In this document: positions 18,142-27,042 of the stretch, in pieces
How the letters are laid out: each line of letters starts with the position of its first letter
How positions within the stretch are numbered: the stretch's first letter is position 1
DNA from: Gemmatimonadaceae bacterium
GTDB taxonomy: Bacteria; Gemmatimonadota; Gemmatimonadetes; Gemmatimonadales; Gemmatimonadaceae
NCBI GenBank assembly: GCA_017881685.1
Contig: JADGQR010000139.1
Coordinates: 1 to 37,820, forward strand
Direction of reading: 5' to 3'
DNA length: 37,820 bases
Notes under the pieces: model-generated
Databases searched by the model: none
What the model was told of the DNA's origin: nothing
Seen by the model: the letters and a program-made list of their open reading frames with translations, nothing else
Made by a program: the position numbers and the translations under genes

Positions 18142-18585
18142 ATGAATCCTCGGCGCGTTGTCGTTGAGGTGTCGTCCACTCTGCGTAGAACGCCGCTCTC
18201 CGCGGCGAGGACGCAGAAACTCGTCGAGCTGACCATGTCGGCCGAGAAAGTCAGGGATGCGATGGTTTCGATTTCCTTCGTCGGAACTCGTGCGATCGCC
18301 AGGCTGAATCGCGATTATCTCGACCATGCCGGACCGACGGATGTCATTTCCTTCGGAATGAAACGCGACAATTCGACGTCCGCAGTGGTTGGAGACATCT
18401 ACATCTGCCCGGAAGTCGCGGCCCGCAACGCGAAGCGGTTGAAGATCTCTCTTCGCCAGGAGCTCGAGCGGCTTGTCGTTCACGGATGCCTTCACGTCGT
18501 CGGCCACGATCACCCCGAAGGCGAGTCGAGAACATCATCACCGATGTGGCGCAAACAGGAGACGATTCTTGCTCGCGCCCGTTGA
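18142..18585 (+). CDS. ybeY: Endoribonuclease YbeY, rRNA maturation factor
   Basis: YbeY is a single-metal endoribonuclease involved in 16S rRNA 3' maturation and ribosome quality control. The 147-residue product has RLNRDYLDHAGPTDVISF and VGDIYICPEVA. The three-histidine zinc motif is in HGCLHVVGHDHPEG. Length is normal. The 3' end overlaps the meaB start by 17 bases, so a core ribosome gene is directly coupled to the acyl-CoA mutase module. Confidence 0.95.
   Translation: MNPRRVVVEVSSTLRRTPLSAARTQKLVELTMSAEKVRDAMVSISFVGTRAIARLNRDYLDHAGPTDVISFGMKRDNSTSAVVGDIYICPEVAARNAKRLKISLRQELERLVVHGCLHVVGHDHPEGESRTSSPMWRKQETILARAR
18557..18561 (+). promoter_or_regulatory. meaB: Ribosome binding site that selects the meaB start
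   Basis: AGGAG lies inside the end of ybeY, 7 bases before TTG at 18569. It supports this TTG start over an ATG at 18473 that would add 32 non-family residues inside ybeY. Confidence 0.6.
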
Positions 18586-19636
18586 AAAGCTGCTGAAGGA
18601 TTTCGATGCGGGAACGACTTTTGCGTTGGCGCGAGCTGTCAGCATAGTCGAGAACCAACGACCCGGCGTTGACGACATTCTCGCCAGCATGCACCCGCGG
18701 CTCGGCAAAGCGCGCCGTATCGGAATCACAGGACCACCAGGTGCAGGCAAGAGCACGATCACCAATCTGCTGACACGCGAATTCCGGAATGCCGGATTGA
18801 CCGTCGGCATCGTTTGTGTTGATCCGACCTCGCCGTTCACAGGTGGAGCGCTTCTCGGTGATCGTGTGAGGATGGAAAGCATTGCCCTGGACGACGGCGT
18901 TTTCATAAGGTCAATGGCGACGCGCGGATCACTCGGTGGACTTGCATCGACTACGCGTGAGGTTGCCGATGTTCTCGACGGCTTCGGGTATGACCGTGTG
19001 ATCATCGAGACCGTCGGCGTCGGGCAGTCGGAGCTCGATGTCGCGCGCACGGCTGACAGCACAGTGGTCGTTCTTGTGCCCGAGTCGGGCGATTCGATCC
19101 AGACACTGAAAGCCGGCGTGATGGAAATCGCCGACATCTTCGTCGTGAACAAAGCCGATCGGCCTGGCGCTGACCGACTGCGCAACGACGTCGAGCTGAT
19201 GCTCGGCCTGCGCAGGGGTGCGTCGTACGGGAACATGCCGGCGCATCACGGTGTCGATCTCAAGCGCGCGATGAACCCCGCTCGAGCAGCGCGGGAAGAC
19301 GCGAAGCTCGAGTCACCGGACAAATGGACGCCGCCGGTCCTCAGCTCAATCGCGGCCAAAGGCGAGGGAATCAAGGAGATAGCGGAGTCGCTTGACCGGC
19401 ACTTCGGTTATCTTGAGAGGTCGGGCGAGCTGCGTCAGCGCCGTCGCGAACGCATGGTCGAGCGTGTTGTCGAAGTTGTCGAGAAACGCATGCGGCAGCG
19501 GATACTGGACGCCGATACAGTGGCCTGGGTGAAGGGAAGGGTTGATGAGCTCGAATCAGGGTCGGTGACGCCGTACGTCGTGGCTGACGATCTGCTGAAA
19601 AAGTTCGGGCATCTCGTGACAGGGGCGACAAAGTGA
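18569..19636 (+). CDS. meaB: MeaB/ArgK-family G-protein chaperone of a B12-dependent mutase
   Basis: MeaB-type GTPases load adenosylcobalamin onto acyl-CoA mutases and protect them from inactivation. With the TTG start the product has 355 residues. The Walker A loop is GPPGAGKST at 55-63. [34 protein letters not shown] and the guanine-specificity NKAD motif are present, with a basic C-terminal helical arm used for dimerisation. The stop overlaps the mutase large-subunit start as GTGA, with AGGGG 7 bases before it. The coupling suggests this chaperone serves the adjacent mutase. Confidence 0.94.
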
Positions 19637-21336
19637 CTTCAATCGATTCAACTACCTCAATTGGTTCTGGTCTCTCGGAAGAGAAAGATCGCGAGATAGA
19701 GCGTCTTCGCTCCGAGCTCTCGGCGTGGAAATCGAGATTCGACAAGACAACCAAACGTGACATCGCCTTCACGAATTCAGAGAAGGAAGTGAATCCGCTT
19801 TACACGTCTGCCGATACCGACGGGCTTTCCGAAGCAGACCTCGGTGTGCCAGGATCGTATCCGTACACCCGCGGAATTCATCCAACCGGATATCGCGGCA
19901 AACTGTGGACGATGCGGCAGTTCGCCGGATTCGGCAGCGCGAGCGACACCAACGAGCGTTACAAGTTTCTTCTCGCGCACGGACAGACCGGTCTCTCGGT
20001 AGCGTTCGACTTTCCCACGCTGATGGGATACGACTCCGATCATCCAAGGTCGGAAGGCGAAGTGGGCAAGTGCGGTGTCGCGATCTCTAGCCTCGCCGAC
20101 ATGGAAGTTCTGTTCGACGGAATTCCGCTCGACAAAGTCTCGACGTCGATGACCATCAACGGTCCCGCGGTGATTCTTTACTGCTTCTATCTCGCTGCTG
20201 CTGAAAAGCAGGGCGTCGATCTCAAGCAGCTTCGCGGAACGATCCAGAATGACATCCTGAAGGAGTACATGGCGCAGCACGCATGGGTCTATCCCATCGA
20301 GCCGGCGTTACGGTTGATCGTTGATTGTTTCGCATGGTCGGCGGAGCACGTTCCGCAGTGGAATACCATTTCGATTTCGGGTTACCACATTCGCGAAGCG
20401 GGAGCGACAGCCGCACAGGAGCTGGCGTTCACGCTCGCCGACGGCTTCACGTACGTCGAGCGCGGCATCGCACGCGGACTTGATGTCGATTCGTTCGCTC
20501 CGCGGCTCTCGTTCTTCTGGGACATACACAACGATTTCTTCGAGGAGATCGCGAAGCTTCGCGCAGCACGCCGCATCTGGGCGCGTCACATGCGCGACCG
20601 TTACGGCGCGAAAGACCCGCGCTCGCTCGTCATGCGTTTCCACTCGCAAACCGCCGGTGTGACGCTTACCGCGCAGCAGCCGATGAACAACGTCGTTCGT
20701 GTTGCGTATCAGGCAATGGCCGCGGTACTGGGCGGAACGCAGTCGCTTCACACGAACTCGATGGACGAAACGCTGGCGCTTCCGACCGAAGAGTCTGTCC
20801 AGGTCGCGTTGAGAACCCAGCAGGTTCTCGCTTACGAAACCGGAGTCCCGAACGTCATCGATCCGCTCGGCGGATCCTATTACGTCGAAGCGCTGACTTC
20901 ACAGATGGAAGAAGAGGCTGAAGGCCTGTTCAAGCAGATCGAGGACGTCGGCGGAGTCGTACGCGGACTGGAGACCGGATGGCTTCAGCGGAAAATCGCG
21001 GAGTCGGCCGCGAGACAGCAGTGGGAGATCGAGCAGCATCGTCGCGTTATCGTCGGCGTCAATGAGTTCGTCACGGATGAGCCCGAGCTCACGATTCCAT
21101 TACTTAAGATCGGCAACACCGATGAGGAGCAGCGCGAGCGTCTCGCAAAGCTCCGTGCGACGCGCGACAGTGCACTCGTCGAGCGAAGATTGAACGAGCT
21201 TCGAGAAGCTGCACGTACGAACGAGAACATGATGCCGCACATTCTCGACGCTGCGCGCGCGTACTGCACGCTTTATGAAATACGCGCGGCGATGGAAGAC
21301 GTGTTCGGAGCGTATCGAGAGCCGGTCTTCTTCTGA
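19633..21336 (+). CDS. icmA: Acyl-CoA mutase large subunit, isobutyryl-CoA mutase type
   Basis: The family rearranges acyl-CoA carbon skeletons with adenosylcobalamin. The 567-residue subunit lacks the B12-binding domain, which is a separate gene downstream. Family motifs include [62 protein letters not shown] (His252), [15 protein letters not shown] and [13 protein letters not shown]. Methylmalonyl-CoA mutase has Tyr89 and Arg207 (P. shermanii numbering) to hold the substrate carboxylate. Here the aligned residues are Phe97 and Gln215, as in isobutyryl-CoA mutase (Phe80, Gln198 in Streptomyces IcmA). The spacing of 118 is the same. Isobutyryl-/butyryl-CoA interconversion is therefore favoured. 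A related acyl-CoA remains possible. The start is GTG. Confidence 0.85.
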
Positions 21337-22088
21337 GCAAGTCAGCTGAATGGTGGGAGTCGTACTTCGATTCCCGGTATTTGCTCGAGTATGAGCCTAT
21401 CTTCACGCTCGAGCGCGACCGTACTGAAGCAGCCCGTGTAATCGACATTGTCGGACTTCCAGATGGGTCGCGAGTTCTCGATGTCCCATGTGGCCAGGGC
21501 AGGCATGCACATCTGCTTGCAGAGTCCGGATTCAAAGTCGATGGCCTCGATTACTCCGAGCATCTCCTGAAGATCGCCCGTAGGCGCGGCACGGGACCGA
21601 ATCTCAAGTACGCACAGGGCGACATGCGAAAGCTGCCGTCCCGATGGACCGCCAGGTTCGATGCAGTCATCAACCTTTTCACGTCCTTCGGCTTCTTCGC
21701 GAATCCGCACGATGACGCCAAGGTGATCGGAGAGTTCGCGCGAGTCCTCGCGCCAGGCGGAACACTGCTCTGGCACGGCGGAAGCCGCGACGGCGTCATG
21801 GCTCGATTCCTATCGCGGGACTGGTGGGAGACCAGCGATGGAACGATCATCGCCCACGAGCGGTCATTCGATCCGTTGTCCGGCGTCTTGACGATCGAGT
21901 CGGTGCTCAAAGGGTCCGCAAAGAGACCTCAGCGGCGGACGCACAGAATCCGGCTTTACACCGCGACGAGACTGGCCGAACTGTGCGCCGACGCCGGATT
22001 GATCGTGGAAGAGGCGTTCGACGGCTTTTCCGAGCGCTCGCTGACCGGACGTTCCAGCGAAATGATGCTCGTCGCGAGAAAGACATGA
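21333..22088 (+). CDS. Class I SAM-dependent methyltransferase, probable CTG start
   Basis: The product has the Rossmann methyltransferase motif [16 protein letters not shown], then [11 protein letters not shown], motif IV-like [14 protein letters not shown], and a late [13 protein letters not shown]. The first standard start in frame is TTG at 21381. Translation upstream of it gives [19 protein letters not shown], an N-terminus common in this family. The frame extends back to CTG at 21333, which overlaps the icmA stop as CTGA. That mirrors the GTGA, ATGA and TTGA junctions of neighbouring genes. With CTG the protein has 251 residues. It separates the two mutase subunits. Its substrate is unknown, and any role in the mutase pathway is inference. 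Confidence 0.75.
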
Positions 22089-22143
22089 CGCAGCGGGTCT
22101 GCGTTGCCCGTCGCTCTCTGACTCTGCTAACTTTGACCCCAGT

Positions 22144-22569
22144 ATGAGACCAATTCGAGTTCTTGTCGCGAAGCCCGGCCTGGACGGTCACGACCGTGGC
22201 GCGAAGGTTGTCGCCGCTGCCCTGCGCGATGCGGGGATGGAAGTCATCTACACCGGCCTTCATCAGACCCCTGAGATGATTGCGACTGCCGCCGTGCAGG
22301 AAGACGCCGATGTCATTGGGCTGTCGATTCTTAGCGGCGCCCACATGACGCTGATTCCACGCGTGAGGCAGCTCGTCGAAGCGCAAGGACGCGACGATAT
22401 CCTGATTACCGGCGGGGGAATCATTCCGCGCGAGGACATGGACGCACTTCAGGCACAAGGCATCGGCCGCTTGTTCGGGCCGGGAACGCCGACCACCGAG
22501 CTTGTCGACTACATCAAGGATTGGTTCGCCTCCCGCGAAGCTCGAGACACGGCAAAGTCGGGAACCTGA
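22144..22569 (+). CDS. icmB: Acyl-CoA mutase small (B12-binding) subunit
   Basis: This 141-residue protein is the cobalamin-binding partner of the large subunit. It has the base-off/His-on motif [12 protein letters not shown], with His16 as the lower cobalt ligand, then [13 protein letters not shown] and [12 protein letters not shown], which wrap the nucleotide tail. Length fits stand-alone small subunits such as IcmB (about 136 residues). It lies 55 bases after the methyltransferase gene and one base before the carboxyltransferase start. A two-subunit mutase with a separate MeaB fits the isobutyryl-CoA or archaeal-type organisation. Confidence 0.93.
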
Positions 22570-22570
22570 C

Positions 22571-24259
22571 GTGACATCACGTCTTCGCGAGCTGAGCGTC
22601 CAGGTGCGCGAGCTCGAGGATAAGCTCAGGCGCGGCGGCGGGCCCGAGAAAATCGCAAAGCTCCACTCGCAGGGAAAACTCTCTGCACGCGAGAGGATCG
22701 AAAAACTCTGCGACCGGGATTCGCGGTTCCTCGAAGTTGGATTGCTCGTCGCGTATGACCAGTATGACGGGCAGGCGCCGGCCGCCGGAGTTGTCACTGG
22801 CGTCGGAATAGTCCACCACAGAGAGGTCGTAATCGTCGCGAACGACGCGACAGTCAAGGCCGGCTCGTGGTGGCCAGAGACAATCAAGAAGATCCTGAGA
22901 GCGCAGGAAATTGCGATGCGCTGCCGCGTGCCGATTATCTATCTCGTCGACTCGGCCGGGGTGAATCTGCCGTACCAGGGCGGTGTGTTTCCCGGTCAAT
23001 ACGGCGCAGCGCGGATTTTCTACTACAACTCGATCATGCGGCGATATCTGCGGATTCCGCAGATCGCTGCAGTGATGGGTCAGTGTGTCGCTGGCGGGGC
23101 ATATCTGCCCGCGCTGTCCGACGTGATCCTCATGGTCAAAGGGACCTCTTTCATGGGACTGGGCGGTCCGAATCTCGTGAAGGGAGCCACCGGTGAAACG
23201 ATCGACGGCGAAACGCTCGGCGGCGCATCGACGCATACCGCGATCAGCGGTGTCGCGCACTACGCCGTGGATGATGAAGACGAGTGCCTGTCGAAATTGA
23301 GGGATCTCGTGCATCGCCTGCCGGCGCAGGAAACCCCTGGAGTGATGGGAGACGTCTACGCTGCACGATTCGATAGCCAGTTCGGTGAGCAGCGCCATAG
23401 TAAAGCGAAAGCGTCGCATGACGAGGCGGCGGCGAAGAAATCCGAAGCCGATGACCTGTACGACCTGCTGCCGTCGGACCATCGCATGTCCTACGACATG
23501 CACGATCTGCTGCGGACGATTCTCGACGGCGGCAAGATCGACGAGTTTCAAAAGGACATCGCAAAAGAGATGATCTGTGGTGATGCCACGATCGAGGGCA
23601 TCAACGTGGGCGTGATCGCGAATCAACGCGGCCTGGTGAAAGGGCGCCCGGGCGAGAAGCCGCGTTTCGGTGGAATCGTCTACGCAGAGAGCGCCGAGAA
23701 GGTCGCGTACTTCATTGACCGCTGCGACAAGCAGAAGATGCCTCTGCTCTTCGTCCAGGACGTTTCGGGATTCATGGTAGGTCCCGAAGCGGAGCATGAA
23801 GGAATCATTCGGGCCGGTGCGCGTTTCGTCGAAGCGATGGCGACGACTCTCGTTCCGAAAATCGTTTTGACTGTCAATCACGCATCCGGCGCAGGCTATT
23901 ACGCGATGGCCGGACAGGGCTTCGATCCGGATTTCATCTTCAGCTGGCCAACCGGTCGCATGGCAGTGATGGAAGGCGAGTCTGCAGTCCAGGCGGTGCA
24001 CGGTCCAACCCTCGATGCAGCGAAGAAGCAGGGCCAGGAGCCGGCACCTGAAGTGTCCGCGGCAGTCGATGCAATGCGAGCCGAGTATGAAAATCAGCTC
24101 GACGCACGCTATGCGGCGGCGCGCGGGTTTGTTGACGCGATTGTTTATCCAGAAGACACTCGCGACGTCCTCGCAATGGCGTTGAGAACGTCGCTTCAGA
24201 ACAGAGGGCCGCACCTCGGACCCTTCGTCCTTCCCGCACATCTCGGAGACACGCTGTGA
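22571..24259 (+). CDS. Acyl-CoA carboxylase carboxyltransferase (beta) subunit, divergent
   Basis: The 562-residue product begins at GTG, one base after icmB. The N-terminal half has [19 protein letters not shown], the [20 protein letters not shown] loop and the oxyanion segment [15 protein letters not shown]. The C-terminal half has [12 protein letters not shown] and [13 protein letters not shown]. This layout matches methylcrotonyl- or geranyl-CoA-type carboxyltransferases. The second oxyanion segment reads [15 protein letters not shown] rather than the usual GGSYGAGNYGMCGRA, and [13 protein letters not shown] replaces WPNARISVMGGE. The subunit is therefore an outlier. No biotin carboxylase or biotin carrier gene is in the window, so the partner must be elsewhere. 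The substrate is unknown. The stop overlaps the next gene as GTGA. Confidence 0.85.
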
Positions 24260-25623
24260 AAGAAGTAGTTCGCGTTGCGGGAGGGCAGGGCTTCTGGGGC
24301 GATTCGCTCGAGGCCCCTCGTCAGCAGGCCGAAGGCGGACCGATTGATTATCTGATGCTCGACTATCTGGCCGAGGTCACGATGTCGATCCTTCAGAAGC
24401 AGAAGGAACGCGACCCGTCGATGGGCTACGCTCGCGATTTTGTCGGCGCGATTGAAAGCGTGCTTCCAGCCGTTGTCGATCGTGGTGTTCGCGTCATCGC
24501 GAATGCCGGCGGAGTAAATCCACCAGCCTGCGCTGCCGCGATTCGAAAGCTCGCCGAATCGAAAGGCGTCGGCGGCAAGATTCGCATCGGAGTCGTGACC
24601 GGCGACGATCTGCTCGGCCGCATCGACGAGCTGATCGCGGATGGACATTCGCTCGCGAACATGGAGACTGGCGAGCCGCTTTCGACAATCCGTGATCGCG
24701 TTCTGTCGGCCAACGCCTACATCGGCTCGACTCCAATCGTCGAAGCATTGAGTCGCGATGCAAATATTGTCATCACGGGACGGTCAACGGACACCGCGCT
24801 GACCATGGCTCCTCTTCGATACGAGTTCGGCTGGTCGGCTACCGACTGGAATCATCTCGCCGCAGGAATCATTGCCGGACACATCATCGAATGTGGCGCT
24901 CAGTGCTCTGGCGGTAACTGTCTCTACGATTGGCGCTCGATCCCGGACCTCGCGAACGTCGGATATCCAATCGCTGAAGCCAAGGCTGACGGAACGTTCG
25001 TGATCACGAAGCATGCTGGCACCGGCGGACGCGTGAGCGTTCCGTCGGTCTCCGAGCAGCTCGTTTACGAGATGGGCGACCCGCACGAGTACATCACGCC
25101 CGACGTGGTCGCGGATTTCACGACGATCCATCTGGAGCAGGAAGGACCTGATCGCGTGCGCGTCTCTGGAATTCAGGGACGTCCGTCAACCGACAAGCTC
25201 AAGGTGTCGATCGCATACCGCGCCGGATTCAAGGCAGTCGGCACGCTCGTGTATTCGTGGCCTGATGCGCTCGAGAAGGCCCAGCTCGCTGACAAGGTTC
25301 TTCGCGAGCGACTGGAGCGGCTCGGACTTCATTTCGACCACATCCTCACTGAGTTCGTCGGAGCCTCGGCGACACACGGCGTGCTTGCTTCACGAAATCC
25401 TGTAACGACTGATTATCCCGAAGTTCAACTGAGATTCGGCGTGCGCGGGAACGATCGCGCTGCGGTCGAGCGCTTCACTCGCGAGATTGCTCCGCTCGTT
25501 CTCAACGGTCCGCCAAGTGTTACTGGATTCGCGGGTGGACGACCCAAGGTCGAGGAGATTGTGGCTTACTGGCCGGCGCTCGTCGACAAGTCGGTCGTCA
25601 CGACGAAGGTGGAGATTCTCTGA
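24256..25623 (+). CDS. AtuA-family (DUF1446) protein
   Basis: The 455-residue product matches the AtuA/DUF1446 family, named for acyclic terpene utilisation. Visible features are [13 protein letters not shown] at the N-terminus, [74 protein letters not shown] and [11 protein letters not shown]. The biochemical function of AtuA is not established. Family members often neighbour acyl-CoA carboxylases and dehydrogenases for terpenoid or leucine-type acyl-CoAs, as here. Many homologues carry a C-terminal ferredoxin-like domain; in this genome that domain is the next separate gene. The GTG start overlaps the carboxyltransferase stop. Confidence 0.88.
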
Positions 25624-25985
25624 TGAACGTCCGTCTGCTCGACATCGCGCATGCACGATCAGGTGACAAGGGTGACACGGCCAACGTTGGTTTGATTGCT
25701 CTCAAGCCAAAGTGGTATCCGATCCTCGAACGCTACGTCACGAGAGATGCAGTCGCCGAGCACTTCAAGGGCTCGATCGACGGACCTGTCGTTCGCTTCG
25801 AGCTGCCAAATCTCAACGCGCTCAATTTTCTCCTGCACGGTGCGCTCGATGGTGGAGGAACGTTGTCACTCAAGACTGACGCGCAGGGGAAGGTGTTTTC
25901 GACGGCGCTTCTTCGCATGGTCATCTCTGTCCCCGACGACGAGGCGCGCAAGTCATCACTTCCATCATCGGACGCTCAGAAGTGA
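25623..25985 (+). CDS. AtuA C-terminal-like domain as a separate protein
   Basis: The 120-residue product starts [23 protein letters not shown] and continues through RFELPNLNALNFLLHGALDGGG. It matches the small domain that is fused to the C-terminus of many AtuA/DUF1446 proteins. It begins one base before the AtuA gene ends (TGATG), so the two chains are almost certainly made together. That supports a two-subunit version of a normally fused protein. The function is unknown. The stop overlaps the next small gene as GTGA. Confidence 0.82.
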   Translation: MNVRLLDIAHARSGDKGDTANVGLIALKPKWYPILERYVTRDAVAEHFKGSIDGPVVRFELPNLNALNFLLHGALDGGGTLSLKTDAQGKVFSTALLRMVISVPDDEARKSSLPSSDAQK

Positions 25986-26146
25986 ACCCGTTCACAACTG
26001 CGAAGATCGCACTGGCGCTTTCCGCTGCAATTCTGTTCGGGCTCGGGATTCGCACCGACATACCAGCGTTGCGATGGGCCGCCATCGGATGTCTCGCGGT
26101 TGCAGTTCTTCTTCGCTTCCTTGACAAGAGCGGAAGCCAGAGATGA
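25982..26146 (+). CDS. 54-residue two-helix membrane protein
   Basis: A short open frame starts at GTG inside the end of the AtuA-domain gene and ends inside the ATG of the aminotransferase gene (GTGA and ATGA junctions). It encodes MNPFTTAKIALALSAAILFG, then LGIRTDIPALRWAAIGCLAV, then a basic tail ending SGSQR. Two hydrophobic stretches, about residues 8-23 and 32-46, fit a helical hairpin in the membrane. Coupling at both ends and the clean transmembrane pattern argue that it is a real gene. I recognise no family. It could simply maintain coupling or have a membrane-associated role with the AtuA pair. Confidence 0.7.
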   Translation: MNPFTTAKIALALSAAILFGLGIRTDIPALRWAAIGCLAVAVLLRFLDKSGSQR

Positions 26147-27042
26147 CGAACACAGTTACCGCTGAATCGCCGATTGCGCAGCCCGCGTCTGCAGCGGGTT
26201 CAGAAATCGTTTACTTCGACGGCCGCTACGTCGCAAAGAGCGAAGTCCGCGTATCGCCCGATGACCGCGGATTTCTCCTCGGCGACGGTATCTACGAAGT
26301 GGCCGCGGCCTACGATGGCAGGTTCATTGCGCTCGATCGTCATATGGACCGGCTGCGGCGCAGTCTCGTCGAAGCCAGGATCGATTCCAGCATCGCTGAT
26401 CCTCTCGAGACAGTCTTTCAGGAGCTGCTCGAACGAAACGGATTCGCCGAATCCGGAAGGACTATGGTCTACCTCCAGGTGACTCGCGGCGTAGCGCCTC
26501 GCACGCACGCATTTCCAAAGAGTCATCCTCGGCCAACGGTGTACGCCTACGCTGCGCCGTTTCCGAATCCCGGAGACATGACGTCTGGGGTCGGCGCAAT
26601 CACGCGGCCCGACATGAGATGGTCGCGTTGCGACATCAAGACGATTTCCCTGATCGCCAACTGCATGGCAAATCAGGAGGCGAAGGAAAACGGCGCGTTC
26701 GAAGCGATCCTAATCCGCGACGGCGTCGTCCTCGAGGGAACGCATACGAGCTTTTTTGGTGTGGTTCATGGCGAAGTTCGCACAGCGCCCCTTTCGAACC
26801 TCATCCTTCCGGGAGTTACACGGGAACTGGTGATCCAGGCAGCCGAGCGCGCTGGAATCGATATCCGCTTCCAGCCGCTGACCGAGGCCGAGGTTGAAAC
26901 TGCCGACGAGTTGTTCCTCACCGGCACGACGACCGAAGTCGTCCCGGTAACGACATTGAACGGAAAGCCGGTGGGCACCGGATCTCCGGGTCCGCTCACC
27001 ATGCGCATGATGTCACTCTACCGCGAGTTAATCGGCGTCTGA
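26143..27042 (+). CDS. dat: D-amino-acid aminotransferase (class IV)
   Basis: Class IV PLP aminotransferase of 299 residues. It has VSPDDRGFLLGDGIYEV, the PLP lysine Lys166 in RCDIKTISLIANC, NQEAKENGAFEAILIRDG, EGTHTS and FLTGTTTEVVPV. This pattern is closest to D-alanine aminotransferase, which supplies D-glutamate or D-alanine for the cell wall. A branched-chain aminotransferase or aminodeoxychorismate lyase is less likely because RCDIK and QEAKENG are D-AAT-like. An N-terminal extension of about 20 residues precedes the core. It is the last gene of the long run that begins with aspS. Confidence 0.85.
   Translation: MTNTVTAESPIAQPASAAGSEIVYFDGRYVAKSEVRVSPDDRGFLLGDGIYEVAAAYDGRFIALDRHMDRLRRSLVEARIDSSIADPLETVFQELLERNGFAESGRTMVYLQVTRGVAPRTHAFPKSHPRPTVYAYAAPFPNPGDMTSGVGAITRPDMRWSRCDIKTISLIANCMANQEAKENGAFEAILIRDGVVLEGTHTSFFGVVHGEVRTAPLSNLILPGVTRELVIQAAERAGIDIRFQPLTEAEVETADELFLTGTTTEVVPVTTLNGKPVGTGSPGPLTMRMMSLYRELIGV

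Follow-up and report, generated by a model that had tools for sequence, protein, structure and literature searches.

The window analysed here is a complete contig of 37,820 nucleotides (JADGQR010000139.1; G000:C309) from a Gemmatimonadaceae bacterium whose genome assembly (GCA_017881685.1) is fragmented, with 3.37 Mb in 341 contigs and a completeness of 84%. It includes an operon that carries the gene for the large subunit of an acyl-CoA mutase. This protein belongs to the same family as methylmalonyl-CoA mutase (MCM) and 2-hydroxyisobutyryl-CoA mutase (HCM), and is quite probably an isobutyryl-CoA mutase (ICM). The features of the locus are as follows:

18473..19636, + strand, MeaB-type G-protein chaperone (PF03308, 306 bits; TIGR00750, 333 bits, over cut-off; P-loop GPPGAGKS)
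19633..21336, + strand, acyl-CoA mutase large subunit, probably of ICM type, without a B12 domain (PF01642, 755 bits; pocket residues; tree; exclusion with IcmF)
19921..19923, + strand, codon of Phe97, Tyr in MCM and Ile in HCM (residue reading, alignment)
20002..20004, + strand, codon of Ala124, Asp in HCM (alignment)
20275..20277, + strand, codon of Gln215, Arg in MCM (residue reading, alignment)
21381..22088, + strand, class I S-adenosylmethionine-dependent methyltransferase, between the large and small subunits (PF13649, 68 bits)
22144..22569, + strand, B12-binding small subunit of 141 amino acids (PF02310, 94.7 bits; TIGR00640, 173.6 bits)
22502..24259, + strand, biotin-dependent acyl-CoA carboxyltransferase, start possibly GTG 22571 (PF01039, 439.6 bits)
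24256..25623, + strand, AtuA family protein (PF07287, 518 bits)
25623..25985, + strand, AtuA ferredoxin-like domain protein (PF23544, 100.8 bits)

The mutase gene starts with GTG, encodes 567 amino acids and overlaps meaB by four bases. It is followed, in order, by the genes for the methyltransferase, the B12-binding small subunit, in which DGHDRG at residue 14 corresponds to the motif DxHxxG, the carboxyltransferase, AtuA and the AtuA ferredoxin-like protein. Since the listed open reading frame (ORF) of MeaB shares 113 bases with ybeY, its true start is probably 18569 or 18626, as judged from inspection of the start codons. The range 19633-22569, which an earlier note on this DNA gave for the mutase, also holds the methyltransferase gene, unmentioned there. 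This methyltransferase shows a weak match to a model for corrinoid protein-associated methyltransferases (48 bits against a cut-off of 180). The carboxyltransferase has 9tps (378 bits), AccD1 (374 bits) and the beta subunit of methylcrotonyl-CoA carboxylase (MCC; 364 bits) as its top PDB matches and appears closest to the MCC-like kind. Directly 3′ of the operon (26143-27042) is a gene resembling class IV D-amino-acid/branched-chain aminotransferases, with a best score of 277.8 bits, below the cut-off of 320.

The identity of the mutase was addressed through its substrate pocket. The earlier note had read Phe97 and Gln215, 118 residues apart, at the two sites that hold the carboxylate in MCM, and the sequence bears out these positions: both residues align with Tyr and Arg in the MCMs of human and M. 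tuberculosis and in the enzymes of Ilyobacter and Rhizobium. For P. shermanii the aligned chain was 5REQ, presumably the Y89F mutant of that MCM, which carries F at the first of the two sites. A third pocket site is Ala124 in the window enzyme and Asp in HCM. Phe and Gln are invariant in the 80 nearest relatives of the window mutase (80/80), a set in which the Gln215 column was partly selected, one of six search patterns having spanned it. The pair is also present in 27 of 29 PF01642 loci from a 200-genome sample of the phylum, the other two being a different, Tyr/Arg enzyme, and in all 30 loci read from a 101-genome sample, the window's own among them. These three sets overlap in part. Since the pair is invariant across relatives, phylum loci and the third set of loci, it is not a product of chance. 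One paper (PMC7238569) credits Jost et al. with finding two sites that determine specificity, and itself identifies an MCM by its Tyr/Arg.

The mislabelling anticipated in the earlier note is real: the family models PF01642 and TIGR00641 label the protein as a methylmalonyl-CoA mutase or as the N-terminal domain of one. These names, together with an operon shared with a carboxyltransferase, would suit an MCM with atypical pocket residues, but this is very improbable, as Tyr/Arg is absent from every copy of the window type that was read and the own genome encodes a separate Tyr/Arg mutase. The latter, on contig C129, is the only other PF01642 protein of the genome; it has Tyr63 and Arg181 and shares fold, family and 56% identity with the window enzyme, from which it differs, like the Ilyobacter (L088) and human (2xij) MCMs, by Tyr/Arg in place of Phe/Gln. 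The same pattern is found elsewhere: of 20 further mutase stretches, 18 hold a lone second mutase, in each case with Tyr/Arg/Ala. The two remaining stretches are third enzymes. That of G101 is a Tyr/Arg mutase with its own B12 subunit, and that of G132 (L247, G132:C2:257500-264500) has the Val/Gln/Asp pocket also seen in the Sinorhizobium and Shinella enzymes described below and is accompanied by a B12 subunit and a MeaB of its own.

The check for a second, Tyr/Arg mutase suggested in the earlier note was thus positive, and the propionate pathway that the note thought might be missing can be recognized in its parts. An epimerase (C288; 125.8 bits, over cut-off) and a second full-length carboxyltransferase (C71), which matches the solved PccB at 713 bits, are encoded along with the Tyr/Arg mutase, so that the parts of a route from propionyl-CoA to succinyl-CoA do exist in this genome, on other contigs.

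Phylogeny separates the window enzyme from MCM in a way that does not depend on the pocket columns. An initial tree had 49 rows and included the very long branches of ethylmalonyl-CoA mutase, pivalyl-CoA mutase and others. In a second tree twelve rows were dropped (five long-branch or odd rows and seven near-duplicates) and the three specificity columns were removed. Here the rows divide at 99/95 support into 22 with Gln and 15 with Arg, and this persistence of the split supports an ICM-type assignment beyond the two residues themselves. The window mutase groups with Gemmatimonadota rows and one Deinococcus row (88/86), on the opposite side of the 99/95 branch from the MCM rows; a single Gln branch (97/96) unites HCM with the Val/Gln/Asp rows and the Phe/Gln rows of haloarchaea. 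The window mutase therefore lies outside both the MCM rows and HCM.

This position also bears on HCM, or its (R)-specific cousin, as an identity for the window enzyme. By sequence the top PDB match is HCM itself (4r3u, 562 bits), and HcmA/HcmB (also read in a Methylibium plasmid copy, L083) resemble the window system in having two subunits, a MeaB beside the large subunit and the pocket Gln. The identity is however 48%, and Ile90 and Asp117 of HCM are replaced by Phe97 and Ala124. The neighbouring window ORFs that were scanned included neither the AMP-binding nor the GntR genes that accompany HCM in Methylibium and Xanthobacter. With the placement outside the HCM branch, this makes such an activity very doubtful.

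Other pocket types were encountered in the family. Mutases of Sinorhizobium medicae and Shinella (L092, L093) carry Val/Gln/Asp, a pocket that differs from HCM by a single residue and resembles neither MCM nor ICM; the Shinella gene adjoins aminotransferase, enoyl-CoA hydratase and AMP-binding genes. On a Rhodococcus fascians plasmid (L135), a gene of the mutase family with Leu/Arg neighbours genes for non-ribosomal peptide synthetases.

Further evidence comes from IcmF (NF045497; PDB 4xc6), in which B12 domain, G-protein and mutase form one chain, while the window has three separate genes; the window mutase reaches 358 bits against the IcmF model, whose cut-off is 1500. Like the window type, IcmF has Phe/Gln at both pocket sites (19/19 copies). 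In a survey of 301 Gemmatimonadota genomes, made up of the own genome and others of at least 90% completeness, the window-type enzyme was found in 254 and IcmF in 19, and never were both found together (hypergeometric p = 1.2e-17, kinship ignored). Another 38 genomes, including the 19 with IcmF, have only other or fragmentary mutase matches and 9 have none. In the 101-genome sample, with more candidates scored per genome, the window type is present in 85 genomes (86 with a fragment in G052) and IcmF in 10, again without overlap. IcmF is spread over eight genera in three families, and four of these genera also hold window-type species (window type vs IcmF: g2, 10 vs 1; g3, 14 vs 2; g7, 2 vs 1; g62, 2 vs 2). 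The loci themselves are consistent with replacement. Two IcmF genomes, G018 and G025, have every gene of the operon but the mutase, and G106 and G147 carry IcmF in the mutase slot, flanked by meaB and the B12 gene and encoded on the strand opposite to both. The surroundings of IcmF copies away from the operon were inspected and gave no hint of a pathway. In G094 the operon was probably lost through an assembly gap.

The operon is well conserved among the 80 relatives, whose record labels are, in all but two cases, Gemmatimonadota or its members. Counted only over loci with enough room, the upstream neighbours are kept in most (AspS 54/55, PhoH 52/62, YbeY 59/69, MeaB 71/72), as are the methyltransferase 3′ of the mutase (59/70), the B12 subunit (55/58) and the carboxyltransferase (48/50); AtuA is kept in 33/46 and was not found in 13/46. 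One contig labelled Candidatus Kuenenia stuttgartiensis (L042) bears the Gemmatimonadota operon, with a mutase of 77% identity, and is probably a mislabelled bin.

That carboxyltransferase and AtuA travel with the mutase could indicate a pocket of the same type acting on another neutral branched acyl-CoA (isovaleryl-CoA, pivalyl-CoA or a 2-methyl-branched C5 compound) together with these two operon products. The window carboxyltransferase is nearer to MCC than the PccB-type enzyme of the genome is, and IcmF also converts isovaleryl-CoA. However, the exclusion partner is named for isobutyryl-CoA, and carboxyltransferase and AtuA both stay without the mutase in G018 and G025, so that they need not belong to its pathway. 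We consider such a substrate unlikely, if less so than those of MCM or HCM. Xaut_5043 (L098), presumably a pivalyl-CoA mutase, shares the two-subunit layout with MeaB but differs in having Leu/Asn at both pocket sites and is 37% identical to the window mutase.

The tree, the separate Tyr/Arg mutase and the replacement by IcmF together argue for the principal call of the earlier note, an ICM-type enzyme rather than an MCM, and not an HCM. We infer that the gene encodes the large subunit of an unfused adenosylcobalamin (AdoCbl)-dependent ICM, that the MCM very likely relies on this B12 subunit and MeaB as well, and that the likeliest role of the ICM is the conversion of isobutyryl-CoA from valine to n-butyryl-CoA or the reverse; as a whole we hold this to be quite probable. 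Phe97 and Gln215, in place of the carboxylate-holding Tyr and Arg, would leave a neutral pocket for isobutyryl-CoA or n-butyryl-CoA. MeaB would load AdoCbl onto the 141-residue small subunit and protect it, and the large subunit would bind isobutyryl-CoA in the pocket lacking the carboxylate clamp. Radical carbon-skeleton rearrangement is the established chemistry of the acyl-CoA mutase family; here it would yield n-butyryl-CoA, which may then enter beta-oxidation carrying valine carbon. The direction is probably from valine to butyryl-CoA, although the reverse could also apply.

Several points weigh against this interpretation. Markers of the valine route give a mixed picture: 3-hydroxyisobutyrate dehydrogenase (TIGR01692) is over cut-off in 0 of the 101 genomes, with weaker matches in 80, and methylmalonate-semialdehyde dehydrogenase is over cut-off in 69, the own copy being cut by a contig end (329 bits). 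With the long-branch rows kept, as in the first tree, support for the Gln/Arg split is only 69. HCM is the sole characterised enzyme on the Gln side, and the tree is without a verified IcmA row and so without a placement beside a proven unfused ICM. In the 301-genome survey, window-type presence was scored by hand-read best E-values below 1e-220 among at most four candidates per genome, and IcmF over its curated cut-off among at most two. Some mutase match but neither enzyme was found in 18 of the 301 genomes (18 rather than 19, as one contig of G052 ends in a window-type fragment, L199); part of these are fragmented, and in several, with three or four matches or a large number of contigs, fragments may have gone unnoticed. 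Since G270, G293 and G296 have neither enzyme and are nevertheless 98-99% complete, the function looks dispensable in some lineages.

The presence of a separate small subunit and MeaB was cited in the earlier note in favour of an ICM. Both are indeed present, but they do not discriminate, because they are normally the only such genes and an MCM would need these too. B12 subunits were counted as TIGR00640 matches of at least 100 bits, and their standing alone was verified by reading in the fetched loci. In the own genome (84% complete) the single TIGR00640 match and the single strong MeaB match are those of the window. Such B12 matches were obtained in 94 of the 101 genomes; in G067 and G068 they are a domain of a fused MCM, and 90 of the 92 others have exactly one. 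Each of the 86 window-type genomes has at least two mutase matches, and 82 of them have one B12 subunit, two have two (G101 and G132, the second beside the third mutase in each) and in two none was found (G042, where the locus is cut at a contig end, and G059). Six window-type genomes are listed as one contig (G016, G038, G057, G069, G073 and G128), and each of them shows two mutases but a single B12 subunit and a single strong MeaB match. Genomes thus usually hold two mutases and one dedicated B12 subunit, and the gene content makes it very likely that the small subunit and MeaB of the window serve both enzymes.

The IcmF genomes are informative in this respect. B12 subunit and MeaB are retained in all nine that were read (G004, G018, G025, G044, G077, G085, G098, G106, G147), and no standalone B12 subunit was found in G067 and G068, where MCM is fused with its B12 domain. 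In these two genomes (L197, L198) the self-contained fused MCM adjoins a MeaB, and IcmF is encoded no more than a few kb away. Across the phylum it therefore seems likely, at a somewhat lower confidence than for the identity of the window enzyme, that ICM and MCM share one B12 subunit and one MeaB; the ICM operon would thus supply the cofactor machinery of propionate metabolism, and on takeover by IcmF the large-subunit gene would be lost while B12 subunit and MeaB stay for MCM.

ICM itself is a known enzyme. IcmA/IcmB of Streptomyces cinnamonensis form an unfused ICM with the same two-subunit layout and Phe/Gln pair, and differ in that the window B12 subunit appears common to MCM as well. A putative IcmA fragment shares 68% identity with the window enzyme, against 59% with the own MCM and 53% with HCM, and serves as a lead rather than a test. 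Our literature search found no paper on a Gemmatimonadota ICM and no acyl-CoA mutase B12 subunit common to two mutases, a small part of the search having been aimed near such sharing.

What is unusual in these observations is that, in most of a phylum, ICM and MCM apparently share a B12 subunit. This offers a system for studying a possible partner-swapping subunit, one cobalamin-binding protein that may serve two radical mutases, and the way in which B12 would be divided between them. The eight genera in which a fused IcmF replaces the split ICM offer a natural set for comparison, and both kinds are present in four of these genera. The classification presented here would correct what is likely a wrong annotation in the majority of genomes (254/301) of one phylum of soil and water bacteria, and the two-residue specificity rule becomes testable through comparative genomics, beyond the residues alone.

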